Positions 1,308 through 32,437 of a stretch of 34,236 bases of DNA are shown in pieces (the stretch's first letter is position 1; each line of letters opens with the position of its first letter). A program made the translations under genes and the position numbers. The notes beneath the pieces are model-generated. The model ran no database searches. It saw only the letters and a list, made by a program, of their open reading frames with translations, and was not told the DNA's origin. The stretch is from an uncultured Phycisphaerales bacterium. Its GTDB lineage: Bacteria; Planctomycetota; Phycisphaerae; WQYP01. The stretch spans positions 1-34,236 of the forward strand of contig CAIPTQ010000049.1 of NCBI GenBank assembly GCA_903868035.1. The letters run 5' to 3'.

Positions 1308-1481
1308 ATATCTGTTATGGCTGCAACCGTCGCCGTCACGCTTCAGGCGGGGCAACTTGTTCGGGTCATTTTCTCACCTGCAATCGCGGCGCATTGCATC
1401 CACGCCTTGTGTTTCCCAATCCGAGAGGTTATTCCGAGCCCGTTCCGTAGCGTCTTCCGTATCTCCCATGGAGGTTCAATC

Positions 1482-3047
1482 ATGCCCAATCGCCGCTTCT
1501 TGTCCTTGCTGTGCGCGCTGATCCTAGGTCTTGGCCTGCGCACCGGATTGGGCCAGACAACCCCCGCCGCCGCCGCGCCCGCGGATGGCGCAAAAGATGT
1601 TCCCGTAAACGTCACACTGTCGTGGCCCGCGGTGGAGGGGGCGAAGGGGTACGACGTGTACTTTGTGGAGTTGCCGCCGGTGGAGGACAGGCCGGTGATG
1701 CCGGCGTTCCAATGCCGGGTGGAGAAGCCGGTGTTCGTGCTGGAGACGTTGTCGGCGGGGAAGAACTATCGGTGGCGGGTGGACGCGGTGATGGGCGCGG
1801 GGGCGGAGGCGGAAACCAAGAAAGGGCCGATGCAGCAATTTACGACGGTGGTCAAGCCCGACCGCGACGCGATGTACGCCTGGCCCATCCGCATGGCCGA
1901 CACCATCCGCGGCCTCTACCCCACCCCCGACCGCGTCGGCGACTGGAACTACACCCAGGGCATGGTCTGCGACGCCCTGATCTCCATCGCCCTCCGCACC
2001 GGCCGCGACAAGGACCTCGACTTCGCCAAGGCCTGGGCCGATCGCTTCGTGCAGGCCGATGGCACCGTCGCCTGGACCACCGCCAATGGCGCCACGCAAC
2101 CCTTTGATGTGGCCCTGCACAGCCTGGACCGCATCCGCCCCGCCCCCGTGCTCCTCTGGCTCTACGACCGCACCAAGGACGAAAAATACAAAAAGGCCGC
2201 GGCCTTCATGGCGGGATTGCTGGATCAACAGCCCAAAACCACCGACGGCGGCTACTGGCACCGCCAGACCTACCCCAACCAGATGTGGCTCGACGGCATC
2301 TACATGGCCGACGTCTTCTCCGCCGAATATGCCGCCATGATGAAGCAGCCCAAATACTTCGACGAAGCGGTGAAACAAATCCTGCTCATCGCCAAGCACA
2401 CCCGCGACGACAAGACCGGCCTGTTCTATCACGGCTGGGATGAAACCAAAACCCGCCCCTGGGCCAACAAGGACACCGGCGCCTCCCCCGAATTCTGGGG
2501 CCGCGCCATGGGCTGGTACGGCATGGCCATGGCCGACATCCTCGAATGGCTCCCCGCCGACCACCCCGGCCGCGCCGCCGTCCTCAAAACCTACCAGGGC
2601 TTCTGCCAAAGCGTCGCCAAAGTCCAGGACCACGACACCGCCATGTGGTGGCAAATCCTCGACAAGCCCACCGCCGCCAAAAATTACGTGGAGACAAGCT
2701 GCTCGATCATGTTCTCCTATGCCCTGGCCAAAGGCGCCCAACGCGGCTGGATCGACGCGTTCTACCTGGAAACCGCCCGCCGCGGCGCCCGCGGGGTGCT
2801 CAACAAGATGGTGGATATCAAGGCCAATGGCCGCGTGGATATCCGGGGTACGGTGACGGTGGGGAGTTTGGGGGGCGTAGGGAGCGTAGGTGGGGCTGCC
2901 GCTGGTTCTTACGAATATTACGTGGGCGTGGGGCAGACCCTCAACGACCAGAAATCCCTGGGCGCCATGATGTACCTGAGCCTCGTCCTCAGCGAAACCG
3001 CCAACGACACCGGCAACGTAAAGCCGCTCCCGCGCCAAGGGCCGTGA
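1482..3047 (+). CDS. Secreted GH105 unsaturated rhamnogalacturonyl/glucuronyl hydrolase
   Basis: A 521-residue secreted enzyme. The ATG at 1482 has GGAGG seven bases upstream and begins a signal peptide (MPNRRFLSLLCALILGLGL). Residues about 30-115 look like a fibronectin-III-type domain (PVNVTLSWPAVEGAKGYDVY); the rest is the alpha/alpha-barrel of GH105. Hallmarks: QMWLDGIYMADVF, which holds the acidic residue equivalent to the catalytic Asp of YteR, and FWGRAMGWYGMAMADILEWL. GH105 enzymes remove the 4,5-unsaturated uronic acid left on oligosaccharides by polysaccharide lyases, which fits the PL11 lyases later in the window. Near the C-terminus a Gly-rich loop (around 2865-2905) replaces the usual short loop before GSYEYYVG. 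The stop codon TGA is the first three bases of a heptad array. Codon use flips from G-ending (about 1620-1850) to C-ending (1870-2850). Confidence 0.88.
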   Translation: MPNRRFLSLLCALILGLGLRTGLGQTTPAAAAPADGAKDVPVNVTLSWPAVEGAKGYDVYFVELPPVEDRPVMPAFQCRVEKPVFVLETLSAGKNYRWRVDAVMGAGAEAETKKGPMQQFTTVVKPDRDAMYAWPIRMADTIRGLYPTPDRVGDWNYTQGMVCDALISIALRTGRDKDLDFAKAWADRFVQADGTVAWTTANGATQPFDVALHSLDRIRPAPVLLWLYDRTKDEKYKKAAAFMAGLLDQQPKTTDGGYWHRQTYPNQMWLDGIYMADVFSAEYAAMMKQPKYFDEAVKQILLIAKHTRDDKTGLFYHGWDETKTRPWANKDTGASPEFWGRAMGWYGMAMADILEWLPADHPGRAAVLKTYQGFCQSVAKVQDHDTAMWWQILDKPTAAKNYVETSCSIMFSYALAKGAQRGWIDAFYLETARRGARGVLNKMVDIKANGRVDIRGTVTVGSLGGVGSVGGAAAGSYEYYVGVGQTLNDQKSLGAMMYLSLVLSETANDTGNVKPLPRQGP

Positions 3048-3149
3048 AATCTCAAATCTGAAATCTCAAATTCCTCCTGCCCGCCTCTGTGCTCCCTGTG
3101 CCCTCGGTGTTCTCTGTGTCGAAATCGTCGTGCCGTCGTGTCGTCGTGG
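3045..3149 (+). repeat. Three consecutive tandem repeats of unit 7, 9 and 8
   Basis: Block 1 (3045-3072) is four heptads of the TGAAATC/TCAAATC type (family B), and its first TGA is the stop codon of the GH105 gene. Block 2 (3083-3118) is four 9-mers ending in TGTG or GGTG. Block 3 (3126-3149) is three 8-mers of CGTCGTGN. Different unit lengths lie side by side directly behind a gene. Confidence 0.8.
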
Positions 3150-3409: not shown

Positions 3410-4441
3410 GTCCCCGCGCCCAATTTTTTGCAAGTATTTTTCTGCCCCGGACTTAGTGTGGCCCTGCCCATCGGCCCCCTGATTATCCGCCCTCTCCCGC
3501 GCTGCAAACAAACGCCGCCCGATGAAACCCGCGCCCGTCCTCCCCTCCCCCCGGCATCCGCCGCCCAAACCCGCTATACTATTGGCGTTTCCCGCACCGG
3601 AGCTTTTTCCATATGCCCGTCCCCGCAGAACTGCTCGCCCCCGCCGGTGACTGGGACGCCCTCTGCGCCGCCGTCGCCAACGGTGCCGATGCCGTCTACT
3701 TCGGCCTCGATCAGTTCAATGCCCGCCATCGGGCGAGTAATTTTACTCCCGAACAATTACCCGCCGTCATGCACTATCTCCGCGCCCATAATGTCCGCGG
3801 CATCGTCACCTTCAACACCCTCATCTTCTCCGATGAACTCCCCGCCGCCGTCGCCTACCTCGCCCTCTTCGCCCGCGCCGGCGTGGACGCGGTCATCATC
3901 CAGGACCTGGGCATCGCCCGGCTTCTGCACCAGCTTTGCCCCGATCTGCCCATCCACGCCTCCACCCAGATGACCCTCACCGAACCCTCGGGCATCGAGT
4001 TCGTCCGCCAGTTCGGCATCACCCGCATCGTCCTCGCCCGCGAGCTGGGTATCGCGGACATCGCCCACATCACCCGGGCCACGGACATGCCTATTGAGGT
4101 CTTCGTCCACGGCGCCCTGTGCGTGGCCTACTCCGGCCAGTGCCTCACCAGCGAAAGCCTCGGCGGACGCAGCGCCAACCGCGGCCAGTGTGCCCAGGCC
4201 TGCCGCCTGCCCTACGCCCTCATCGTCGATGGCCGGCCGCGTGACCTGGGCGACAAGGCTTATCTCCTCAGCCCCAGTGACCTGGCCGCCTATGACCTCA
4301 TCCCCGACCTGCTCCGCGCCGGCGTGACCGCCTTCAAAATCGAAGGCCGCCTCAAAAGCGCCCACTACGTCGCCGCCGCCTGCCAAACCTATCGCGCCGC
4401 CCTCGACGCCGCCACCGGAACCGCGACCAAAATCGCCATCG

Positions 4442-4466
4442 GAGCCGCGACCGTAAGGGAGCGACC
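4442..4466 (-). repeat. Interspersed 25-bp repeat, copy 1 (inside U32 gene)
   Basis: The 25 bases beginning GAGCCGCGACCGTAAGG match the complement of 11222-11246 at 24 of 25 positions. It sits in the inserted linker of the U32 gene and is read in frame as ATVRERP-like residues. In the other orientation the repeat encodes SLPYGRGS-like peptides. Confidence 0.8.
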
Positions 4467-4517
4467 AGACGCTGCTGCTGATACTCATGATCATGCCGAA
4501 AAATCTCCCGCCCACTC

Positions 4518-4627
4518 CAATCTCAAATCTCAAATTTCAAATATTTCAAATTTCAAATCTGAAATATCTGAAATATCTGAAATCTCAAATCTCAAATCTG
4601 AAATCTCAAATCTCAAATTTCAAATCT
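4518..4627 (+). repeat. Long heptad array, family B (TCAAATC/TGAAATC), inside U32 gene
   Basis: About 110 bp of 7-mers of the type TCAAATC, TCAAATT and TGAAATC, with a few 9-mers (TGAAATATC). Same family as the block behind GH105 at 3045-3072. It is AT-rich in a very GC-rich gene and reads through in frame as a Ser/Asn/Lys/Ile-rich linker, so it lengthens the protein without stopping it. Confidence 0.9.
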
Positions 4628-4806
4628 CCCCTGCCCAGCGCCACGACCTCGAACAAACCTTCTCCCGCGGCTTCACCCACGGCTTCCTCACCGGCGTCAA
4701 TCACCAGCAACTCGTCGCCGCCCGTTTCCCCAAAGCCCGCGGCACCCGCGTCGGCACCGTCCTCCGCACCACCCCCCGCGGCGTCATCATCCGCCCCGAC
4801 CCGCTG

Positions 4807-4827
4807 GAAACTCGAAACTCGAAACTC
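4807..4827 (+). repeat. Heptad array, family C (GAAACTC x3), first frameshift site
   Basis: Three perfect GAAACTC units followed by TCCTC. One unit encodes the expected LET-L junction; two extra units (14 nt) move translation from frame 1 to frame 3. Confidence 0.93.
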
Positions 4828-5417
4828 TCCTCAAGCCCGGCGATGGCATCGTCTTCGACGAAGGCCACCCCGAGCAGGACGAACAGGGCGGCCGCGTGTT
4901 CCTGACGCGGGCCCGCGCGAATGAAATGGAACTCGAGTTCCGCCCCGACGACGTCAACCTCGCCTACATCAACCCCGGCGCGCTCGTCTGGAAAACCGAC
5001 GACCCGGCCCTCAAGCGGCGGCTCGAACATTCCTTCTCCCGTGAAGGCGTGGCCCATCGCGTACCCGTCGATTTTGTCGTGCGGGCGTGCGTTGGCGAGT
5101 TCCTCGAAATCCGCGCCTCCGCCCAGGGCCGCGCCGCGGCGGCACGCTGGGAGGAAAAGCCGCTCGAACTGGCCGCCAAATACCCCCTCACCGAAACGCT
5201 CGCCCGCGAACAACTCGCCCGCCTCGGCGACACCCCCTTTGAACTCGCCACCCTCACGCTCGATACCGACGGCCAGGCCATGGTCCCCAAAAGCATCCTC
5301 AACGACCTGCGACGCCGCCTCTGCGCCGAACTGCTCGCGGCACGAACGCGTGAATACACCATCGCCGATCCCGAAGCGCTGGAACACCTACGGGCCAAAC
5401 TCCCCACCCCGCCACTT

Positions 5418-5438
5418 GAAACTCGAAACTCGAAACTC
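5418..5438 (+). repeat. Heptad array, family C (GAAACTC x3), second frameshift site
   Basis: Same three perfect GAAACTC units and the same TCCTC flank as the array at 4807. Two extra units shift the frame from 3 to 2. The two sites are 611 bases apart in one gene. Confidence 0.93.
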
Positions 5439-6286
5439 TCCTCGTCCTCGTCCGCACCCTGGACCAACTCGACGCCGCCCTCGCGTTCTCCACCCCCCTC
5501 CGCCCCGCCATGCTCTACGTGGAGTTCGAGGACGTCCGCCGCTACCCCGAAGCCGTCCGCAAATGCCGCGCGCAGAACATGCCCGTCGGCCTGGCCACCA
5601 TCCGCATCGTCAAGCCCGGAGAGCAAGGCTTCCTCAAGCAGGTCGGCGATTGCCACCCCGACGCCATCCTCGTCCGCAGCCTCGGTGCCGTCGGCTATTA
5701 CCGCCAGCATGCCCCCGGCATCCCCCTCATCGGCGACTACGCCCTCAACGTCGCCAACGAGCTCACCGCCGGCATCTTCCTCCACGCCGGCCTCCAGCGC
5801 CTCACCCACAGCTACGACCTCAACTGGAAACAGCTCGCCGCCATGGCCGCCCGCCTCGACGCCGCCCGCCTCGAATGCGTCATCCACCAACATATGCCCA
5901 TGTTCCACATGGAGCATTGCGTCTTCGCCCACACCCTCTCCACCGGCACTGACTTCCACAACTGCGGCCGTCCCTGCGAACGCCACCGCGTCGAGCTCCG
6001 CGACCGCGTCGGCGAAGATCACCCCCTCCTCCCCGACGTCGGCTGCCGCAACACCCTCTTCAACGCCGCCGCCCAGACCGCCGCCGAGTACCTCCCCGAA
6101 ATGCGCCGCCTGGGCATCCGCCACTTCCGCATCGAACTGCTCCGCGAAACCGCCGCCCAAACCACCCGCCTCCTCGACCGCTACGCCCGCGTCCTCGCCG
6201 GCCTCGAGTCCCCCGCCCAAACCCTCCGCAGCCTCCGCGCCCTCAACCAACTGGGCGTGACCCGCGGCACGCTGGTCCATGAGTGA

Positions 6287-6641: not shown

Positions 6642-6818
6642 ATGAAAAAATGCCTTTTTTCCTCGATTTTACTGCTTATTCTCGCCAGCGGCGCCTATGC
6701 GGAAGACACTCCCGTTCAGACCGCGACCGTCGGCGGCGGCCTGCAGAATCCCTGGCGCCCGCCCTACAAAACCGCGGTGGTCCTGGTACACAGTGAAACC
6801 GCTTTTAACAACCATTAA
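6642..6818 (+). CDS. Tiny ORF with signal peptide, 58 residues
   Basis: ATG preceded by GGAG a few bases upstream. The first 20 residues (MKKCLFSSILLLILASGAYA) are a textbook Sec signal peptide with an A-Y-A cleavage site. The mature part would be only about 38 residues, beginning EDTPVQTATVGGG, with no recognisable domain. It may be a genuine small exported peptide, or the surviving N-terminus of a longer secreted protein cut off by the stop at 6816-6818. A weak promoter candidate lies at 6565-6593. Confidence 0.4.
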   Translation: MKKCLFSSILLLILASGAYAEDTPVQTATVGGGLQNPWRPPYKTAVVLVHSETAFNNH

Positions 6819-11171: not shown

Positions 11172-11221
11172 CATTGGCGTTAAATCGGGATGACTCGCGG
11201 GAGTCAAGCGGGTGACAACCC

Positions 11222-11246
11222 GGTCGCTCCCTGACGGTCGCGGCTC
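11222..11246 (+). repeat. Interspersed 25-bp repeat, copy 2 (upstream of mutL)
   Basis: Complement of 4442-4466 with one mismatch. It belongs to a longer repeat-like region (about 11185-11300) that also has small inverted repeats, including CCTGCCCC / GGGGCAGG at about 11270-11287. It lies between the DUF362 terminator and the mutL start. Confidence 0.78.
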
Positions 11247-11334
11247 TGAAAGTCAAAGGCAATCGCCCTGCCCCCCGGGGCAGGGGATCGTTTCCCTGCA
11301 TTGCCATGCCGGGCTGGGGGGATATGATGCGTCG

Positions 11335-13296
11335 ATGCGCCAGAAGATCCAAATCCTGCCCGAATCGCTGATCAACAAAATTGCCGCCGGCGAGGTGGTG
11401 GAGCGGCCCGCGTCGGTGGTGAAGGAACTGCTGGAAAACGCGCTGGACGCCGGGGCGCGGCGGATCGCCATCACGGTCGAGGAGGGGGGGCGCACGCTGA
11501 TCCGCATCGCGGATGACGGCACCGGCATACCAGCGGAGGAGGCGGTGCTGGCGTTCGCCCAGCATGCGACGTCGAAGATCCGGACGGCCGACGACTTGTT
11601 CGCCATCGCCACGATGGGGTTCCGCGGCGAGGCGCTGGCCTCGATCGCGTCGGTGAGCCACGCGACGATGGTGACGCGCACGGCGGATTCCCAGCAGGGC
11701 GTGCGCATCGAGGTGAAGGATTCGATGCTCGGGCCGGAGGGCGGCGTGCCCTGCGCGGCGCCGGTGGGGACGACGGTGGAGGTGCGGGACTTGTTTTATT
11801 CCGTGCCGGCGCGGCGGAAATTCATGCGCACCGATGCGACGGAGTTTTCGCACATCCACGAGATGGTGCTGCGGAGCGCGCTGCCGAACCCGGGCGTGGC
11901 GTTTACCTTAACGCACAATGGGCGGAAGGTGCTGGAACTGCCGGCGACGGCCGATGCGCGCCTGCGCGTGGCCGAGGCGCTGGGCGGCGGCGGCCAGGAG
12001 TCCAAGGATTTGTACGCCGGGCTGATTGAGATTGACTTTGAGGAGCGCGGCATCAAGGTCTGGGGATACGCCGGGCAGCCGGCGATGGCCCGGCCCACGG
12101 CACGGTATCAATATTTGTTTTTGAATGGGCGGTATATCCGGGACCGGTCTTTGTTCCATGCGCTGAAGGAGGCGTATCGCGGGCTAATTGAGCCGGCTTC
12201 GCAACCGGTGGCGATTTTGCGGCTGGACATGGAGCCGGCGCTGTTCGACGTGAACGTACACCCGCAGAAGACGGAGGTGCGGTTCCGCGACTCCGGCGGA
12301 GCGTACCGCGCGGTGCTGGCGGCGTTGCGCGAGAAACTGCTGGCCAGCGATTTGACGCCGCAGGTCAAAACCGCCGGGCGCGTGGTGGCGGGTCCGGGGC
12401 CGGTGGCCAATGGTCAGTGGTCCGTGGCGCCGAACGCCCGGCAGCAGGAGTTGTCGCCGCTGTCCACTGGGGAGACGCGGGATGTGATCGCGGAGTTTTT
12501 CAAGCAGGGCGGGGGCGCGGTGCAGGGGCGGATCGCCTTCGGGGTGGAGACGGGGCCGAGCGTGGTGGATGATCCGTCGCGGATCACGGTGGGGCGTGAA
12601 GAGGGTATAGGGTATGGGGTTCAGGGTATGGGAGCGGACATCCATACGCCTCCCAGTGCCGGCGAATCACTCCCGGACTCCGCACTAAACCCTAAACCCT
12701 CTACCCTGGACCCTCACCGCCCGTTTGTGCAGGTACACGACACGTATATTGTTGCCGAGACCAGTGATGGTCTGGTGATCATCGATCAGCACGCGCTGCA
12801 TGAGCGGATTATTTACGAGGAACTGTTCGCGCGGGCCACGCGCGGGGCGCTCGAGGGGCAGCATCTGCTGATCCCCGAGGTGCTGGCCGTGAATCCGCGG
12901 CAGGCGGCGGCGCTGGAGACGGTCAAGCCGATGCTGGTGAAGTTGGGGATGGAAGTTGAGGATTTCGACGGCGGGAGCGTGGCGGTGCATACTTTCCCCA
13001 GTTTGCTCTCGAAGGTGTCGCCGCGGGAGTTTTTGCGCGACCTGCTGGACCGCCTGATGGAATACGGCGGCGCCGGCGGCGGCAAGCTCACCCCTGAGGA
13101 ACTGCTGCACGAAGTGCTCGACATGGCCAGTTGCAAGGCGGCGGTGAAGGCGGGGTATCCGCTATCGCAGGATGAAATTGCGGCACTGTTGCAGCGCAAG
13201 CAACAGGTGGAGCGCTCCAGCAATTGCCCGCATGGCAGGCCCACGACGCTGCGGCTGACGCTGGGGGATTTGGAGCGGCAGTTCAAGCGGAAATGA
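11335..13296 (+). CDS. mutL: DNA mismatch repair protein MutL, endonuclease type
   Basis: A 653-residue MutL. The ATG at 11335 gives the usual N-terminus (ILPESLINKIAAGEVVERPA); the upstream open frame runs into a repeat and is not used. GHKL ATPase motifs are all present: ENALDAG, DDGTGIPAE and GFRGEALASIASVSH. The C-terminal domain has the intact metal-binding endonuclease motif DQHALHERIIYE, plus ACKAAVKAG and CPHGRP, so the protein should nick DNA itself as in bacteria without MutH. The flexible linker (about residues 350-460) has been extended by three heptad arrays (12404-12431, 12603-12630 and 12685-12712) that keep the frame. Neighbours are unrelated; it is convergent with the fucosidase gene. 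Coding-strand codons are strongly G-ending. Confidence 0.95.
   Translation: MRQKIQILPESLINKIAAGEVVERPASVVKELLENALDAGARRIAITVEEGGRTLIRIADDGTGIPAEEAVLAFAQHATSKIRTADDLFAIATMGFRGEALASIASVSHATMVTRTADSQQGVRIEVKDSMLGPEGGVPCAAPVGTTVEVRDLFYSVPARRKFMRTDATEFSHIHEMVLRSALPNPGVAFTLTHNGRKVLELPATADARLRVAEALGGGGQESKDLYAGLIEIDFEERGIKVWGYAGQPAMARPTARYQYLFLNGRYIRDRSLFHALKEAYRGLIEPASQPVAILRLDMEPALFDVNVHPQKTEVRFRDSGGAYRAVLAALREKLLASDLTPQVKTAGRVVAGPGPVANGQWSVAPNARQQELSPLSTGETRDVIAEFFKQGGGAVQGRIAFGVETGPSVVDDPSRITVGREEGIGYGVQGMGADIHTPPSAGESLPDSALNPKPSTLDPHRPFVQVHDTYIVAETSDGLVIIDQHALHERIIYEELFARATRGALEGQHLLIPEVLAVNPRQAAALETVKPMLVKLGMEVEDFDGGSVAVHTFPSLLSKVSPREFLRDLLDRLMEYGGAGGGKLTPEELLHEVLDMASCKAAVKAGYPLSQDEIAALLQRKQQVERSSNCPHGRPTTLRLTLGDLERQFKRK
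12404..12431 (+). repeat. Heptad array, family E (TGGTCAG/TGGTCCG), in mutL linker
   Basis: Four 7-mers: TGGCCAA, TGGTCAG, TGGTCCG, TGGCGCC. Same family, opposite strand, as the array at 32481-32515. Confidence 0.72.
12603..12630 (+). repeat. Heptad array, family D (GGGTATA/GGGTATG), in mutL linker
   Basis: Four 7-mers: GGGTATA, GGGTATG, GGGTTCA, GGGTATG. In frame with mutL. It forms a loose inverted pair with the CTAAACC array 55 bases downstream, and shares GGGTATA and GGGTTCA with the array at 32375-32402. Confidence 0.85.
12685..12712 (-). repeat. Heptad array, family D on the opposite strand (CTAAACC), in mutL linker
   Basis: Four 7-mers: CTAAACC twice, CTCTACC, CTGGACC. This is the complement sense of family D (GGTTTAG). 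Read in frame as a Pro/Leu/Asn-containing linker just before the dimerisation domain. Confidence 0.85.
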
Positions 13297-17414: not shown

Positions 17415-17438
17415 AAGATGTACACGTAGGAGGACATG

Positions 17439-20222
17439 ATGCCAGGGCAGTTGTTACATCCGGTGCGGCAGCGCCGGCGTCCGTATTGGCGCGCTCTGGA
17501 ACAACTCGAAGCGCGGACGCTGCTGGCGGCCACGATTGTGCCGGTGGTGAAAGCCGGGGCGGCCGTGCCGGCGGCGGCCACGACGGCCCCGCGCATCATG
17601 GAAAACCTCGGACGCGGCGTGGCGGTGGTGCATGCCTCCACGTCGCAGGCCCTCGTGAGTTGGCGGTTGCTGGCCCTGGACCCGGCGGGGATTGCGTTCA
17701 ATGTGTACCGCTCGGCCAACGGCGGGGCCTTTACGCGGCTCAACGGCAGTCCGCTCACGGCGGGCACCGACTACCTCGACACGACGGCCAATTTCACGAT
17801 CAGCAATGTCTACCATGTGCGGCCCGTGATCAACGGCGTGGAGCAGGCCCCCAGCGGCGCCTTCACCCTCAAGGCCAACACGGCGGTCGAGCCGGTGATT
17901 CGGGTGCCGCTGCGGACACCGCTCCCCGGCTACTACACGAAATTTGTCTGGGTCGGCGACCTCAACGGCGACGGCGAATATGAGTTCGTCATCGACCGCC
18001 TGGCCCCCGGCGACCTCAACGACAGCCACCTGGGCACGGGCAACCAGTTCCTCGAAGCGTACCAGCGCGACGGCACGTTTCTCTGGTCCGTCGATATGGG
18101 GCCTACCAGCACCAATATCTACAACATCGAGCCGGGGGCGGCAACCATCGACATGGGCCACTATGACGGCGTCACCGTGGCCGACATGGATTGCGACGGC
18201 AAGGCCGAAGTGCTGACCCGCGCCGCCAACGGCACCGTCTTCGGCAACGGCGAAGTGCTGGCCGCGGGCACGAACATCCAATTCGTCTGCGTGCTCGACG
18301 GCATGACCGGCGCCTGCCGGGCGCGCCTGCAATGGTCCACCGATTATCTGTCCGACGGCCCGATGGGATGGCAGGTGGGCATCGGCTACCTCGACGGCGT
18401 CCACCCCAGCTTCGTGATCAACGCCAAGAATCGCATCGGCAGCGGCGCCTTCAACGAAACCGTCGCCGCCTACCGTTTCGACGGCACGAACCTCACGCGG
18501 CAATGGAAGTGGAACCGGGGCAACCAAAACTGCCCCGACGGCCACCAAATCCGCATTGCCGACGTCGATGGCGACGGCAAGGATGAAGTCATCCCCATGG
18601 GCTTCGTCCTCGATCACAACGGCACGCTGCTCTACTCGCTGGCCATCACCGGCGGCGTGGTGCATGGCGACCGCTTCGACATCGGCGTGTTTGATCCCAG
18701 CCGCCCGGGCCTGCAGGGCTACGCCATCCAGCAGGGCAATCCCAGCGGCTTGTATGACTGCTACTACGACGCGTCCAACGGACAAATGATCTGGCAGCAT
18801 TTCAGCGCCACCCCCGTGGACGTGGGCCGCGGCATGGCCGCAGACATCGATCCCAACCATCCCGGCTATGAAGTCTGGGCCTTCAACGGCCTGTGGAACG
18901 CGGCCACCAATACGCAGATCGCGACCACGACGCCCTATCCGCAATTTGGCTGCTGGTGGGATGGCGATCTGCTGGGCGACAACCTCAACGATGGCAAACT
19001 CGATGGTGCGGTCGGCGGCCGTGAGGTCACGATGTACAAGTTCGACGGCGGCGGGAACGGGTCGCTGCCGCTGTTTGTCGGCGATATCTGGGGCGACTGG
19101 CGCGAAGAAATTGTCATGATCAACGGAGCCCAGAACTCGCTGACCATCTTTTCGACCGACAAGTTCACGAACTACCGCATCTACACCCTGGCGCAGGACC
19201 CGTACTATCGCAACTGCATGACGACCAAGGGTTACTACCAGACCAACTATGTCGATTACTATCTGGGCGCGGGCATGGCCACGCCCCCGGTGCCCAACAT
19301 CGTGTACGCCGGCACGCAGCCGGTGACGCAGACTCTTGGATATCAGGCAGAGGCGGCGCTGCTTGCCGGCGGCGTCACCATCGACACGAACCATTTGGGA
19401 TACAACGGCACGGGGTTCGCGAACCTGCCAACGACGGGCGGATCGGTGCGGTGGAACAACGTGGACGGCGGCGCGGGCGGGTTCACGACGATTCGGTTGC
19501 GTTATTCATTGGGCACCACGACGACCCGGACGGGGCGGCTGACGGTCAACGGGGCGGCGCAGAATGTGACGTGCGAGAACACCGGCACGTGGGACGATTG
19601 GTTATATCTGTCGGTGAGCGTGCCGCTGACCGCGGGACGGACGAACACGATCCTGCTCGAATCGACGGGGCAGGATTTTGGGAATGTGGACGAGCTGCAG
19701 GTGGACGCGATTGTGCCGGCGGCTCCGGCGCTGCGCAGCCTCATGGTCAACGACGGGAGCGCCCAGCGGTCGATGGTCAAGAGCATCACGGTGACGTTCG
19801 ACCAGGCGGTGAACCTGGGGAGCGGGGCGCTGGCGCTGACGCGCGGGGGCAGCGCCGTCACGCTGGTGCAGACCAATCCGTCGGGGGACGGGCGGGTGTG
19901 GGTGCTGACCTTCACGGGTGCGGGAATCGTGGGCGGTTCGCTGGCGGATGGGCTGTACGATTTGCAGCTCACTCCGGGCGCGATCACCAGCAACTTCGGC
20001 CAGACGCTGACGGGCGGAGTGGTACACTTCGGCGTGCATCGGCTGTATGGGGATTTTGACGGAGACCGGGACGTGGACGCGCTGGACCTGGCGAAGATGT
20101 CGCCGGCACTGAATACGGCGTCAAAATTCAATGCGCTGTTTGATTACAACGGGGACGGGCGGGTGGACGGCATGGATTTGCTGGAGTTTAAGAAGCGGTT
20201 GAACAAGGCGTTTGTGCCATGA
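17439..20222 (+). CDS. PL11-like rhamnogalacturonan lyase, LEPR-XLL and dockerin-like, divergent core
   Basis: A 927-residue surface or secreted enzyme. AGGAGG at 17428-17433 is five bases from ATG 17439 and only two from ATG 17436, so 17439 is chosen. Order of parts: LEPR-XLL-like N-terminus (LEQLEARTLLAA); FN3-like PL11 N-domain (RIMENLGRGVAVVH, SWRLLALDPAGIAFNVYRS); a beta-propeller with calcium-type blade motifs (DLNGDGEYEFVI, DMDCDGKAEVL, DVDGDGKDEVI) to about residue 630; a CBM35/CBM6-like beta sandwich (YQAEAALLAGG ... VDELQVD); an Ig-like module; and a C-terminal pair of EF-hand loops (GDFDGDRDVDALDLAKM, DYNGDGRVDGMDLLEFKKRL) resembling dockerin. Unlike its neighbour it lacks the classical KDNSQ...NIRAGAHYTQF core of PL11, so activity or specificity may differ. 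Confidence 0.83.
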   Translation: MPGQLLHPVRQRRRPYWRALEQLEARTLLAATIVPVVKAGAAVPAAATTAPRIMENLGRGVAVVHASTSQALVSWRLLALDPAGIAFNVYRSANGGAFTRLNGSPLTAGTDYLDTTANFTISNVYHVRPVINGVEQAPSGAFTLKANTAVEPVIRVPLRTPLPGYYTKFVWVGDLNGDGEYEFVIDRLAPGDLNDSHLGTGNQFLEAYQRDGTFLWSVDMGPTSTNIYNIEPGAATIDMGHYDGVTVADMDCDGKAEVLTRAANGTVFGNGEVLAAGTNIQFVCVLDGMTGACRARLQWSTDYLSDGPMGWQVGIGYLDGVHPSFVINAKNRIGSGAFNETVAAYRFDGTNLTRQWKWNRGNQNCPDGHQIRIADVDGDGKDEVIPMGFVLDHNGTLLYSLAITGGVVHGDRFDIGVFDPSRPGLQGYAIQQGNPSGLYDCYYDASNGQMIWQHFSATPVDVGRGMAADIDPNHPGYEVWAFNGLWNAATNTQIATTTPYPQFGCWWDGDLLGDNLNDGKLDGAVGGREVTMYKFDGGGNGSLPLFVGDIWGDWREEIVMINGAQNSLTIFSTDKFTNYRIYTLAQDPYYRNCMTTKGYYQTNYVDYYLGAGMATPPVPNIVYAGTQPVTQTLGYQAEAALLAGGVTIDTNHLGYNGTGFANLPTTGGSVRWNNVDGGAGGFTTIRLRYSLGTTTTRTGRLTVNGAAQNVTCENTGTWDDWLYLSVSVPLTAGRTNTILLESTGQDFGNVDELQVDAIVPAAPALRSLMVNDGSAQRSMVKSITVTFDQAVNLGSGALALTRGGSAVTLVQTNPSGDGRVWVLTFTGAGIVGGSLADGLYDLQLTPGAITSNFGQTLTGGVVHFGVHRLYGDFDGDRDVDALDLAKMSPALNTASKFNALFDYNGDGRVDGMDLLEFKKRLNKAFVP
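19335..20222 (+). repeat. C-terminal module, direct repeat copy 1
   Basis: The CBM35-like, Ig-like and dockerin-like coding region (888 bp) is closely matched by 23007-23891 (885 bp), with long stretches identical at the nucleotide level (for example around 19860-19940 against 23525-23605). The catalytic regions upstream are far more diverged. Confidence 0.85.
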
Positions 20223-20393: not shown

Positions 20394-23300
20394 ATGATAA
20401 AACGCGGACGACGCAAAACCTGGACGCCGTTCCATCACCTGGAGCGGCTGGAGCCGCGGCGGCTGTTGAGCCTGACGCATTTGTATACGTTTAATGACGG
20501 GACGGCGAACGATGGCGTGGGGACGGTGAATGGGACGTTGTACAACGGGGCGGCGGTGTCCAACGGGCGCTTACAGTTGCAGAACGCGGGGATCACCAGC
20601 GGGGGGACGGTGCAGTATGCGCGGCTGATGGGGACGCTGCTGCCTGCGAGCGGCAGCGCGACGATCTACGCGTGGTATTACACGGACAGTTCGACGCCCA
20701 ACGCGATGCGGGTGTTTGATTTCGGGAACGGCCCGACGGGGTCGTATGTGAGTTACACGCCCAAGAGCTCGAGCAACAATGCGCGGGCGTACTTTGACAC
20801 GACTACGGCGGCGGAGGTGAATGCCGGCTCGCCGATTGGGACGACGGCGGCGCAGGGGTATCGAAATTTTGTGGCGGTGGTGGTGGATGCGACGGCGAAT
20901 ATGATGTCGCTGTATCTCAACGGGGCGTTGAGCGGGACGGCGGCGCTGGGCGGGGCGAACATCGGGGCGATCAACGAGGCGAGCGCGTATCTGGGGCGGT
21001 CGCAGTTCACGGCCGATGCGGGGTTCTCGGGGTCGATCGACGAATTGCGGATCTATGACGAGGCGCGGACGGCGGAGCAGATCGCGGCGGATGATGTGAC
21101 GGGGCCGGCGTTCGCGGCGGCCACTTCGACGCCGGCCAGGCAGGTGGAACGGCTGGACCGGGGGATGGTGGCGCTGCCCGCGACGGCGGCGGGGGGGATC
21201 TATGTAAGCTGGCGGCTGCTGGGAACCGATCCGGCGGGGACCGGGTTCAATTTGTACCGCTCGGCGAACAATGGGGCCTTTGTGAAGCTCAACGGCAGCC
21301 CGATCATGGCGACGACGGATTACCAGGACACGGGGGCAAACAAGACGTATGTGAATAAGTATTATATCCGGCCGGTGATCGGCGGGGTGGAGCAGGCCCC
21401 CAGCGAGACGTATGTGTTCACGGCGGGATTCGCCAGTAGTTATTTGAGCATACCGCTGCAGATTCCGGCCGGGGGGCACCTGCCCGGCACGGCGGACACG
21501 ACCGAACATGATTACACGTACAGTGCCTGCGACACGAGCGTGGGGGATGTCGACGGCGATGGCCAGTATGAGTTCATTGTGCGGTGGGATCCCTCCGATT
21601 CGAAGGACAACTCCCAGGACGGCTACACCGGCAACGTCTATATTGACTGTTACAAGATGAACGGCACGATGCTCTGGCGCATCGACCTGGGGGTGAACAT
21701 CCGTGCCGGCGCCCACTACACCCAGTTCCAGGTGTACGACCTGGACGGCGACGGCAAGGCGGAAGTGGCCATGAAGACGGCGCCGGGCACCATCGACGGG
21801 CAGGGGCATTATGTGCTGCTGGGAACGGACAGCCCCACCGCCGATTACCGCACGGACCAGGGGTACATTCTGTCGGGGCCGGAATATCTGACGGTGTTCA
21901 ATGGCCTGACCGGGGCGGCCATGGCCACGGCGGCCTACACGCCCGACCGCGGAACCCTGAGCAACTGGGGCGACACGTATGGCAACCGCGTGGACCGCTT
22001 CCTCGCGGCGGTGGCGTATCTCGACGGCGCGCGGCCCAGCCTGATCGAGGCCCGCGGCTATTACACGGGCTCGAGCGGGGCGCGCAACGAGATCACGGCC
22101 TGGAATTACCGCAACGGCCAGCTCACGCGAATCTGGTGGTTCAAAGCCGACCTGAGCAACAACAACAACATGAACAGCAATTACGCCGGGCAGGGCGCCC
22201 ATGCCATCGAAATCGCCGACCTGGACCTGGACGGCAAGGATGAGATTGTGTACGGCGCGTGTGCCATCGACGACGACGGCCGGCCCATGTGGTCCACGGG
22301 GCTGGGGCATGGGGACGCGATTCATGTGTCGGATATGGACCCCACGCGGCCGGGCATCGAGATTTTCCAGGCCCATGAGGGCGGATCGCAGGCCATGGGC
22401 GCGGACTTCCGCAGCGGCATCACCGGCGAGGTTTACTTCGGCATCGACTCGGGCGCGGCCAGCGTCGACGTGGGCCGCGCCATGGCCGCCGACATCGACC
22501 CGCGCTACCTGGGCTACGAGGTCTGGGACTCGGCCAACGGCAGCCTGTTCAGCGCCCAGGGCGTGGCCATCGGACCCAAGCCCAGCAGCCAGAACTTCGG
22601 AATCTGGTGGGATGGGGATTTGGGCCGCGAACTGCTGGACGGCACCAAGATTGACAAATGGAATTATGCCGCCGGCACGACGACGCGGCTGGTCACGGGA
22701 TCGGGCGTTTCGTCCTGCAACGGAACGAAGGCCACGCCGTGCCTGTCGGGGGACATCCTGGGCGACTGGCGCGAGGAAGTGGTGTGGCGCACCACCGACA
22801 GTTCCGCTTTGCGTATTTATTCGACGACCACGCCGGCGACGAACCGCATCTTTACGCTGATGCACGATATAGAGTACCGCGAGGCGATCGCCTGGCAGAA
22901 TTCCGCCTACAACCAGCCGCCCAATCCCAGTTTCTTCCTGGGCTACGGCATGACCACGCCGGTGGCCAACGTCTATTATGCCGGCACGGTCGTGGCGACC
23001 GCGACGCTCGCCTGGCAGGCCGAGACCGCCGTGCTCGCCGGCGGCATGTACGTCGAGAGCAACTGGACCGGCTTCAATGGCACGGGGTTTGTTAATTTCC
23101 CCACCACGGGCGGTTCGGTGCGCTGGAACAACGTGGACGGCGGGGCGGGCGGCCTGACCACTATCCGCTTCCGTTACGCCCTGGGCAACACGGCGCGCAC
23201 GGGACGGCTGACGGTCAACGGCCTGGCGCAGGATGCGACGTTTGCGACGACTACGACCTGGGACAATTGGTCGTACCTGACGGTGAGTGTGCCGCTGACG

Positions 23301-23891
23301 GCGGGACGGACGAACACGATCCTCCTGGAATCGACCGGGCAGGATTTGGGAAATGTGGACGAGCTGCAGGTGGATGCGATCGTGCCCGCGGCACCGGCGC
23401 TGCAGAGCGTGATGATCAACGATGGCACCGCGCAGCGGTCGATGGTCAAGAGCATCACCGTGACGTTCGACCGGGCGGTGAATATGGGTGCCGGGGCGCT
23501 GGCGCTGACGCGCGGGGGGAGCGCCGTCACGCTGGTGCAGACCAATCCGTCGGGGGACGGGCGGGTGTGGGTGCTGACCTTCACGGGTGCGGGAATCGTG
23601 GGCGGTTCGCTCGCGGACGGGCTCTACGATTTGCAGATCAATCCGGCGGGGGTGCGGGACAACTTCGGGCAGGCGCTGACCGGCGGGGTGACGCACATCG
23701 GGTTGCACCGGTTGTATGGGGATTTCGACGGGGACCGGGACGTGGACGCGCTGGACTTGGCGAAGATGTCGTTGGTGCTGAATACGGCGTCAAAATTCAA
23801 TGCGATGTTTGATTACAACGGGGACGGGCGGGTGGACGGTTTGGATTTGCTGGAGTTTAAGAAGCGGTTGAACAAGGTGTTTGTGCCATAA
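20394..23891 (+). CDS. PL11 rhamnogalacturonan lyase with LamG, CBM35-like and dockerin-like domains
   Basis: An 1165-residue enzyme cutting the rhamnose-galacturonate backbone of rhamnogalacturonan I by beta-elimination. Order: LEPR-XLL motif (LERLEPRRLLSL, residues about 15-28); LamG-like concanavalin domain (residues about 28-235, ending GSIDELRIYDEARTAEQIA); FN3-like PL11 N-domain (VERLDRGMVAL); the classical PL11 propeller (DVDGDGQYEFIVRWDPSDSKDNSQDGYTGN split across blades, NIRAGAHYTQFQVYDLDGDG, LSGDILGDWREEVVWR) to about residue 865; CBM35-like domain; Ig-like module; dockerin-like EF-hand pair ending NKVFVP. The first lyase ends almost identically (NKAFVP). Only 36 bp separate its stop from the PEP-CTERM-like gene, so these two are probably one transcript. 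Codons are G-ending in the N- and C-terminal parts and more C-ending in the catalytic core. Confidence 0.92.
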   Translation: MIKRGRRKTWTPFHHLERLEPRRLLSLTHLYTFNDGTANDGVGTVNGTLYNGAAVSNGRLQLQNAGITSGGTVQYARLMGTLLPASGSATIYAWYYTDSSTPNAMRVFDFGNGPTGSYVSYTPKSSSNNARAYFDTTTAAEVNAGSPIGTTAAQGYRNFVAVVVDATANMMSLYLNGALSGTAALGGANIGAINEASAYLGRSQFTADAGFSGSIDELRIYDEARTAEQIAADDVTGPAFAAATSTPARQVERLDRGMVALPATAAGGIYVSWRLLGTDPAGTGFNLYRSANNGAFVKLNGSPIMATTDYQDTGANKTYVNKYYIRPVIGGVEQAPSETYVFTAGFASSYLSIPLQIPAGGHLPGTADTTEHDYTYSACDTSVGDVDGDGQYEFIVRWDPSDSKDNSQDGYTGNVYIDCYKMNGTMLWRIDLGVNIRAGAHYTQFQVYDLDGDGKAEVAMKTAPGTIDGQGHYVLLGTDSPTADYRTDQGYILSGPEYLTVFNGLTGAAMATAAYTPDRGTLSNWGDTYGNRVDRFLAAVAYLDGARPSLIEARGYYTGSSGARNEITAWNYRNGQLTRIWWFKADLSNNNNMNSNYAGQGAHAIEIADLDLDGKDEIVYGACAIDDDGRPMWSTGLGHGDAIHVSDMDPTRPGIEIFQAHEGGSQAMGADFRSGITGEVYFGIDSGAASVDVGRAMAADIDPRYLGYEVWDSANGSLFSAQGVAIGPKPSSQNFGIWWDGDLGRELLDGTKIDKWNYAAGTTTRLVTGSGVSSCNGTKATPCLSGDILGDWREEVVWRTTDSSALRIYSTTTPATNRIFTLMHDIEYREAIAWQNSAYNQPPNPSFFLGYGMTTPVANVYYAGTVVATATLAWQAETAVLAGGMYVESNWTGFNGTGFVNFPTTGGSVRWNNVDGGAGGLTTIRFRYALGNTARTGRLTVNGLAQDATFATTTTWDNWSYLTVSVPLTAGRTNTILLESTGQDLGNVDELQVDAIVPAAPALQSVMINDGTAQRSMVKSITVTFDRAVNMGAGALALTRGGSAVTLVQTNPSGDGRVWVLTFTGAGIVGGSLADGLYDLQINPAGVRDNFGQALTGGVTHIGLHRLYGDFDGDRDVDALDLAKMSLVLNTASKFNAMFDYNGDGRVDGLDLLEFKKRLNKVFVP
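23007..23891 (+). repeat. C-terminal module, direct repeat copy 2
   Basis: Partner of 19335-20222. One codon shorter (LGNTARTGRL against LGTTTTRTGRL). The near identity ends sharply at the boundary with the propeller, as expected from module copying or gene conversion. Confidence 0.85.
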
Positions 23892-32367: not shown

Positions 32368-32374
32368 GATGATA

Positions 32375-32402
32375 GGGTATAGGGTTTAGGGTTCAGGGGA
32401 TA
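32375..32402 (+). repeat. Heptad array, family D (GGGTATA/GGGTTTA), in the EamA leader
   Basis: GGGTATA, GGGTTTA, GGGTTCA, GGGGATA, period 7. Same units as in the mutL linker. It ends eight bases before the transporter start codon on the minus strand. Confidence 0.88.
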
Positions 32403-32437
32403 GGGGGAGAAGCGCAGGGCATGAAATTCCGCGCAAC

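Follow-up and report, generated by a model that had tools for sequence, protein, structure and literature searches.

Among the tandem heptanucleotide repeats dispersed over bacterial genomes, the STRR repeats are those of the heterocystous cyanobacteria. Other dispersed heptads have been reported from Xanthomonas (unit GGGAATC) and Nostoc (unit GGGGA(T/C)T; PMC4692102) and from Beggiatoaceae (unit TAACTGA; PMC4679880), and Calothrix is a further genus with reported tandem heptanucleotides (PMC4692102). According to these two papers, heptameric repeats are the over-represented class among the longer simple sequence repeats of bacteria and the families studied are mainly intergenic (PMC4692102, PMC4679880), the intergenic share being 89% and 93% in two xanthomonads (PMC4692102). 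A four-unit heptad element of Geobacter metallireducens, with the consensus GGACCGG, is described at 49 places within and between genes (PMC2700814). A heptad in coding sequence is that of neuO in E. coli K1, where (AAGACTC)n was recorded in 64 genomes with 3 to 53 units, most often with 20 (PMC13001214).

We analysed a stretch of 34,236 nt, referred to as the window, in which a U32 gene is split over three reading frames (Table 1). The parts follow one another in the order of frames 1, 3 and 2, and each is an uninterrupted part of one U32 protein. Pfam assigns PF01136 (Peptidase_U32) to the first part, PF12392 (DUF3656) to the second and PF01136 again to the third. By translation, the last 32 residues of the first ORF, from position 4807, begin in array B and are off the ancestral frame. 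The second and third segments, with 195 and 281 codons, contain no further stop. If both sites had a single unit, the read-through protein would have 881 residues (2674 nt minus 28). The figure of about 881 residues that the original prediction gave for the three fused frames is borne out arithmetically, and so is its reasoning on the frame: a 7-bp unit shifts it with every copy, and reading would go through with either one unit or four.

Residues 162, 170 and 177 of the U32 protein make up the motif E-x7-C-x6-C, and the E/C/C residues at those positions are reported as essential in TrhP (PMC6599085). PF01136 together with this motif marks the U32 RNA hydroxylases at the family level, and the window gene carries both. 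On the NCBIfam TrhP model, the first ORF scored 201.9 bits against an equivalog cut-off of 534; the intact relatives P0010 and P0003, with 231 and 241.6 bits, also fell below it. From its domains and motif, the window gene is a U32 gene akin to those of the RNA hydroxylases RlhA and TrhP and likely encodes an RNA-modifying enzyme, in agreement with the kinship assumed at the outset; identity as TrhP itself is unsupported by the score. A search of solved structures with a 42-sequence profile returned no match at E 0.001.

Table 1. Coordinates of the split U32 gene and of the heptad arrays in the window.
Feature	Position	Strand	Basis or remark
Broken U32/DUF3656 gene, three frames	3613..6286	+	ORFs, translations, Pfam PF01136 and PF12392, NCBIfam TrhP score
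First ORF, 430 aa, frame 1	3613..4905	+	N-terminal U32 domain, E162-C170-C177, array A
Second segment, frame 3, DUF3656 domain	4830..5414	+	ORF, Pfam
Third segment, C-terminal U32-like half in frame 2, uninterrupted up to its stop	5441..6286	+	ORF, Pfam
Array A, in frame, about 15 units of the AAATCTC/AAATTTC type with 83% matches	~4515..4628	+	Encodes NLKSQIS...NLKFQIS
Array B, GAAACTC x3, linker before LKPGDG	4807..4827	+	Frame 1 to 3
Array C, GAAACTC x3, linker before C-terminal U32 half	5418..5438	+	Frame 3 to 2
Weak array in frame in mutL, 4 heptad units of the AGGGTAT type with 71% matches	12600..12629	+	
Short heptad array, CTAAACC type, in frame in mutL	12685..12707	+	
Heptad array (TGAAATCTCAAATC) containing the stop codon of the GH88 gene 1317-3047	3045..3071	+	

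When both strands of the window were searched, GAAACTC was found in six copies, all on the plus strand, at 4807, 4814, 4821, 5418, 5425 and 5432. Arrays B and C are thus both exactly 21 nt, each is followed by TCCTC as originally described, and they are identical through 26 nt. Shuffled windows held a mean of 2.5 single heptads and 5 of 100 reached six, so the count of GAAACTC alone is weak. Exact self-matches of at least nine positions gave a different picture of the periods: eight at period 7, five at period 6, two each at periods 9 and 12, and none at periods 4, 5, 8, 10 and 11. In a tolerant scan of periods 4-13, period 7 likewise yielded the most arrays in the window (10). What is beyond chance is the tandem arrangement of the heptads rather than their number, and the tandem unit of seven bases is that of an STRR-like repeat.

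The two weaker arrays in mutL (ORF 11212-13296, Pfam MutL_C) are in frame, and so is the longer array A of the U32 gene, which the original prediction does not mention; arrays B and C are not. The unit CTAAACC is also that of plant-type telomere repeats, a match that is presumably due to chance. Further heptad arrays of the window, of the types CCAATTA and ATAGGGT, lie at 49-79 and 32372-32405. Gene ends inside heptad arrays were seen for the GH88 gene of the window and for several genes of the related genome G003 described below. Elsewhere in the window, two adjoining rhamnogalacturonan lyase genes (family 11; 17436-20222 and 20394-23891) each carry a CBM6 domain and a C-terminal dockerin.

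In named genomes, the U32 relatives closest to the window come from Phycisphaerales MAGs (L001-L004), and the best named MutL matches are from Phycisphaerae. No second allele of the species was present among the best 120 matches listed for each protein search (read-through U32, first ORF and MutL). The best full-length identity among the matches listed was 72% for U32 and 78% for MutL, with one partial MutL match at 84%, and nothing above 75% besides the window's own protein appeared in the best 120 of each U32 search. In L001, L002, L004 and L013 the U32 gene is intact, and no exact period-7 run was found in those loci at the scan threshold. In L003 (MAG Emb289P4bin17), a heptad array at 6043-6062 occupies the homologue of site B, in frame and with the gene open, and a second array, at 6772-6791, lies in frame in a loop slightly downstream of site C. 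The locus L010, from a Verrucomicrobiaceae genome, also has a heptad array in frame at site B. At the protein level, P0010 and P0123 have heptad-like peptides at site B, and P0003, P0029 and others have them at site C, ahead of the LVRT motif, where they are often altered by substitutions; P0023-P0028 have LEARNARLES at site B, which resembles the peptide encoded by GAAACTC.

The linker lengths bear on the direction of the change. At site C, the linker has 15 to 56 residues in relatives (98 of 120 measurable by pattern), and in the window it would come to 12 for a single unit and 19 for four; a length of exactly 19 is found in 7 of the closest 28 relatives. The linker lengths at site C therefore make four units the likelier in-frame ancestor, with the present three one too few, and array C probably lacks one unit instead of carrying two in excess. 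At site B, where 64 of the 120 relatives were measurable, the linker ranges over 5-33 residues, with 7-10 in 36 of the 64, and the window would have 8 with one unit and 15 with four, both inside the range of the relatives. Here an ancestor of one or of four units is possible, and by length one would fit the relatives as well or better. The idea that two units were gained at each site is consequently disfavoured at site C, where a four-unit linker fits and one unit would have been lost; site B is compatible with gain or loss. In a structural model of P0010 (mean pLDDT 76), site B is flanked by the strands 328-333 and 354-358, and site C by the helix 532-540 and the strand 555-560; both lie in low-confidence blocks, with a mean pLDDT of 60-66 and a short helix in each.

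The segments beyond the breaks were examined for constraint through protein distances. The mean ratio of segment 2 to segment 1 was 1.60 in the window against 1.53-2.26 (mean 1.88) in 28 relatives, and that of segment 3 to segment 1 was 1.10 against 0.99-1.44 (mean 1.22). Only one relative for segment 2 and three for segment 3 lay below the window, which ranks second and fourth lowest of 29, the 28 relatives including six near-identical ones (P0023-P0028) and thus not being independent. Neither the distance ratios nor the stop codons gave a sign of relaxed constraint or of further disabling changes in the U32 gene, and by these measures all three segments look equally constrained. Since segments 2 and 3 are no faster, the break is either very recent or absent from the cell.

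The same class of arrays was then viewed across related genomes. We scanned for period-7 arrays in 661 kb of G003 (the genome of L003) and 225 kb of G002 (the genome of L002) and compared the frame on either side of each array by codon bias and open frames. The scan returned 204 arrays in G003, mostly in picked stretches, and 34 in G002. Merging gave 180 arrays in G003, divided into 36 in frame inside an ORF, 7 called shifted, 4 in the same frame with an internal stop, 16 lying between opposite strands, and 117 flanked by coding sequence on a single side or on none. One of the 36, at L167, turned out to be a C-run and was dropped, which left 35 heptad arrays in frame, spread over 19 ORFs. In G002, 6 of the 33 merged arrays were in frame in 4 ORFs and none was shifted. 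Within the G003 and G002 stretches, therefore, all 41 callable intragenic heptad arrays and all 23 ORFs that carry them keep the frame, the arrays in one ORF being non-independent; most of the 213 merged arrays of the two genomes still lie at gene ends or between genes.

Several calls that might have been taken for broken genes were set aside. The 7 shifted and the 4 same-frame-with-stop calls of G003 were judged by eye to be gene ends or intergenic gaps. The single shifted call of G005 sits between two genes that we take to be hisH-like and hisA-like. An array in L189 (G282) lies in noncoding sequence or shadow frames, as judged by eye only.

Removal of 7 or 14 nt in silico from each in-frame array turned 42 of 42 calls into shifts, so the caller would have detected breaks at such places; this control covers arrays that the caller had placed in frame beforehand. 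Breaks may stay hidden among the opposite-strand or one-sided calls, as happened with array B. Applied to the window, it called array C shifted and assigned arrays A and B to a reverse-strand shadow frame, and the frame reading of these two consequently rests on translation.

A Pfam run over G003 ORFs placed a known domain in 17 of 18 heptad-bearing ORFs (the U32 gene is not among the 18), L113 being the one that had none. The domains include CPSase, MutS, AIRS/PurS (PurL-like), shikimate dehydrogenase, PdxA and DAHP_synth_1, as well as PriA, DNA polymerase X-like and Mur ligase. The 23 ORFs with in-frame arrays include those of MutS, CarB, PdxA and PriA. Single genes with two to four in-frame arrays of differing unit types were seen in G003 at L117 5550-6707, L128 1998-4319 and L172 222-2501. 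Arrays of AGAAGCC in G003 are often paired with an inverted GGCTTCT about 17-36 nt away, near gene ends (for example L114 6196-6279, L117 4772-4864 and L118 1027-1124). Such paired inverted arrays could form long hairpins and are candidate terminators.

The 40 G003 stretches comprised 30 picked for GAAACTC, one for the U32 gene and nine unpicked. The nine unpicked stretches (180 kb) held 9 arrays, or 5.0 per 100 kb, with none in frame within genes, and period 7 was not enriched there (10 against 11 for period 8); some of the nine had a lower GC content, of 0.50-0.55. The stretches L173-L181 have a GC content of 0.50-0.57 and few arrays, and L111-L130 and L163-L172 one of 0.56-0.60 and many. 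The G003 bin may be mixed, from two organisms, or the repeat may be patchy. Ten unpicked G002 contigs (145 kb) gave 28 merged arrays, 5 of them in frame in genes, with one contig being a 2-kb run.

Many copies scattered over the genome were found in the window and in the G002 and G003 stretches. Matches to GAAACTCGAAACTC number 60 in G003, some of them overlapping, and 3 in G002, with none in G001 or G004, and the sequence is present in 3 of 28 genomes of that family. Of 392 genomes sampled across the phylum, 9 contain three tandem units. Among the loci retrieved from that sample, L188 (G307) has a three-unit array in frame within an open stretch. The reversed control, CTCAAAG in three units, gave 43 matches in a single genome of the phylum (G143), which marks another genome with its own heptad type in bulk. 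In Calothrix sp. NIES-3974, 65 period-7 arrays were found in 400 kb, and none of the 64 merged arrays was called in frame inside a gene. Among the literature matches listed, a coverage that leaves most subscription journals outside, we found no report of heptad arrays in Planctomycetota genes.

The reading that we prefer, with a probability of roughly 0.55, is that the gene is a recently inactivated U32 allele in which in-frame heptad arrays have recently changed. On this reading, arrays B and C belong to a dispersed tandem-heptad repeat comparable to the cyanobacterial STRR repeats, which in this Phycisphaerae-related lineage sits between genes and also in loops of conserved proteins, the intragenic arrays normally being of frame-keeping length and presumably held so by selection. 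The ancestor would have had in-frame arrays of about four units at both linkers, and one unit would have been lost from each, through polymerase slippage or through gene conversion between the near-identical arrays. The outcome would be an allele that yields just the 430-aa N-terminal piece. Loss of the enzyme would probably be tolerated, as an E. coli strain without all four U32 paralogues was constructed (PMC6599085), and regulated switching would not be required to explain the broken gene. In favour of this reading are the in-frame arrays or heptad-like peptides of relatives at the two linkers, the in-frame arrays of the MAG stretches, the linker lengths at site C and the distance ratios of the segments. 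Against this reading, two equal-size and very recent breaks in one gene are a coincidence that needs coupling. The linker lengths at site B, the unpicked G003 stretches with no array in frame inside a gene, and the breaks that the caller can miss also weigh against it. As the arrays are identical over 26 nt, the equal changes may indeed be coupled, either by gene conversion in the cell or by a 7-nt loop in the assembler.

The second of these routes is the core of the rival that survives best, an error of copy number in the assembly of a gene that is intact in the cell, which we regard as a genuine though lesser possibility. If each site truly had four units, about 33 nt in a row would be identical between the two loci, and a graph assembler with a word of 21 would close the tandem loop into exactly 21 nt, or three units, at both sites. 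This is the length of both arrays, whose identity extends through TCCTC, and such an error would account at once for the two equal breaks. The conservation of the three segments to the degree seen in intact relatives speaks in its favour as well, as do the related MAG stretches, where no frame-breaking intragenic heptad array was found. Against it, the G003 assembly keeps exact runs of at least 28 nt (28 of 125 runs of at least 18 nt), and 28 nt is no obstacle to assemblers that step up to longer words. The window has no run of at least 28 nt among its five, a figure that is not telling in this comparison.

A broader view, which we hold to be rather unlikely, takes the heptad repeat as an active resident of coding genes that is seeded in loops of housekeeping proteins and made uniform across nearby sites, with selection alone keeping it in frame. 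The U32 gene, caught with both arrays one unit off, would then be in a true and reversible off-state within a natural population. If this were true, every gene carrying arrays would be one slippage from off. Two arrays of G003 have the same unit, counting either orientation and up to one mismatch, in 27 of 41 pairs less than 200 bp apart, in 17 of 57 pairs at 200-1000 bp and in 3102 of 15547 pairs between loci. By these figures, the sameness of the units of B and C at about 590 bp is only weakly unusual as a sign of copying.

The original prediction had raised the possibility of a contingency locus. In such a locus the number of GAAACTC units at B and C would slip at a high rate and toggle the U32 enzyme. 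The ON state would need both arrays at one or four units, comparable to AAGACTC in neuO of E. coli K1. In favour of it are a heptad in coding sequence, where every unit changes the frame, the pure and uninterrupted form of the arrays, the intact gene body, and a precedent of the same arithmetic in neuO (PMC13001214). However, there are just three units, and ON would be rare when two independent arrays must both be right. The U32 gene is neither a surface nor an antigen gene, and no allele with another copy number was present among the matches listed. Moreover, the intragenic arrays of the relatives, many of them in housekeeping genes, are in frame, and the repeat is therefore no switch per se. 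With the arrays of the relatives in ordinary genes, and 41 of 41 in frame, a contingency locus specific to the U32 gene is not supported, and we consider toggling of this gene decidedly unlikely.

Very improbable, in our judgement, is a gene that is expressed as it stands, either by programmed frameshifting, with the same -1 shift at both sites, or by fission into chains that start internally at GTG 4896 and ATG 5510. The breaks do demand an identical shift, but no X_XXY_YYZ heptamer is found at either array, the sole one being TTTCCCC at 4725, about 80 nt before array B, and the two-frame overlaps hold no A or T run of at least 5. As for fission, U32 proteins are able to work as two chains, as UbiU and UbiV do, and GTG 4896 overlaps the end of the first ORF with AGGG about 8 nt before the start. 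Yet the ORF from 4896 leaves the ancestral frame after array C and runs to 6260, no purine-rich site precedes ATG 5510, and the aligned full-length relatives are single chains. An old pseudogene with the arrays as one symptom of its decay, the other possibility raised at the outset, could point to two frame breaks in one gene, but it hardly survives the lack of any other stop in the 195 + 281 downstream codons, the pace of segments 2 and 3, no faster than that of segment 1, and the retained E/C/C motif.

Whichever route led to the broken U32 gene, the repeated presence of in-frame heptad arrays inside conserved genes of a Phycisphaerae lineage seems to be new. Heptads have been reported mainly outside coding regions, where the gain or loss of a unit breaks no frame, and in-frame arrays in MutS, CarB, PurL-like, PdxA and PriA proteins indicate that they are able to settle as protein linkers. 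The lineage is thus a natural test of how frequently slippage breaks genes. For metagenome contigs, frame breaks at heptad arrays must be checked against the reads before the gene concerned is declared dead or switchable.

The protein and the repeat each have described counterparts. RlhA and TrhP are like the window gene in the PF01136 domain and in the E/C/C motif at 162/170/177 (PMC6599085), whereas the window gene scores under the TrhP and UbiU equivalog cut-offs and consists of two U32 halves flanking DUF3656, with about 840 aa in its relatives. With neuO the U32 gene has in common a heptad in coding sequence and a frame that is open for one in three copy numbers, and by this analogy phase variation is possible. 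In neuO, however, there is a single 5' site with measured switching (PMC13001214), and the U32 gene, known from its sequence, has three units at each of two internal sites, where B and C form a frame-changing repeat. The element of Geobacter metallireducens is one GC-rich family, described as predicted regulatory RNA elements (PMC2700814), in contrast to several AT-richer unit types in the window lineage, for which no regulation is proposed. The STRR-type repeats stand closest in form, with short tandem 7-nt arrays scattered genome-wide and several unit types possible per genome. Their host is a heterocystous cyanobacterium, which the window host is not, its relatives being Phycisphaerae and Phycisphaerales MAGs. 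STRR-type repeats are mostly intergenic, whereas many of the Phycisphaerales arrays lie in frame inside conserved genes.
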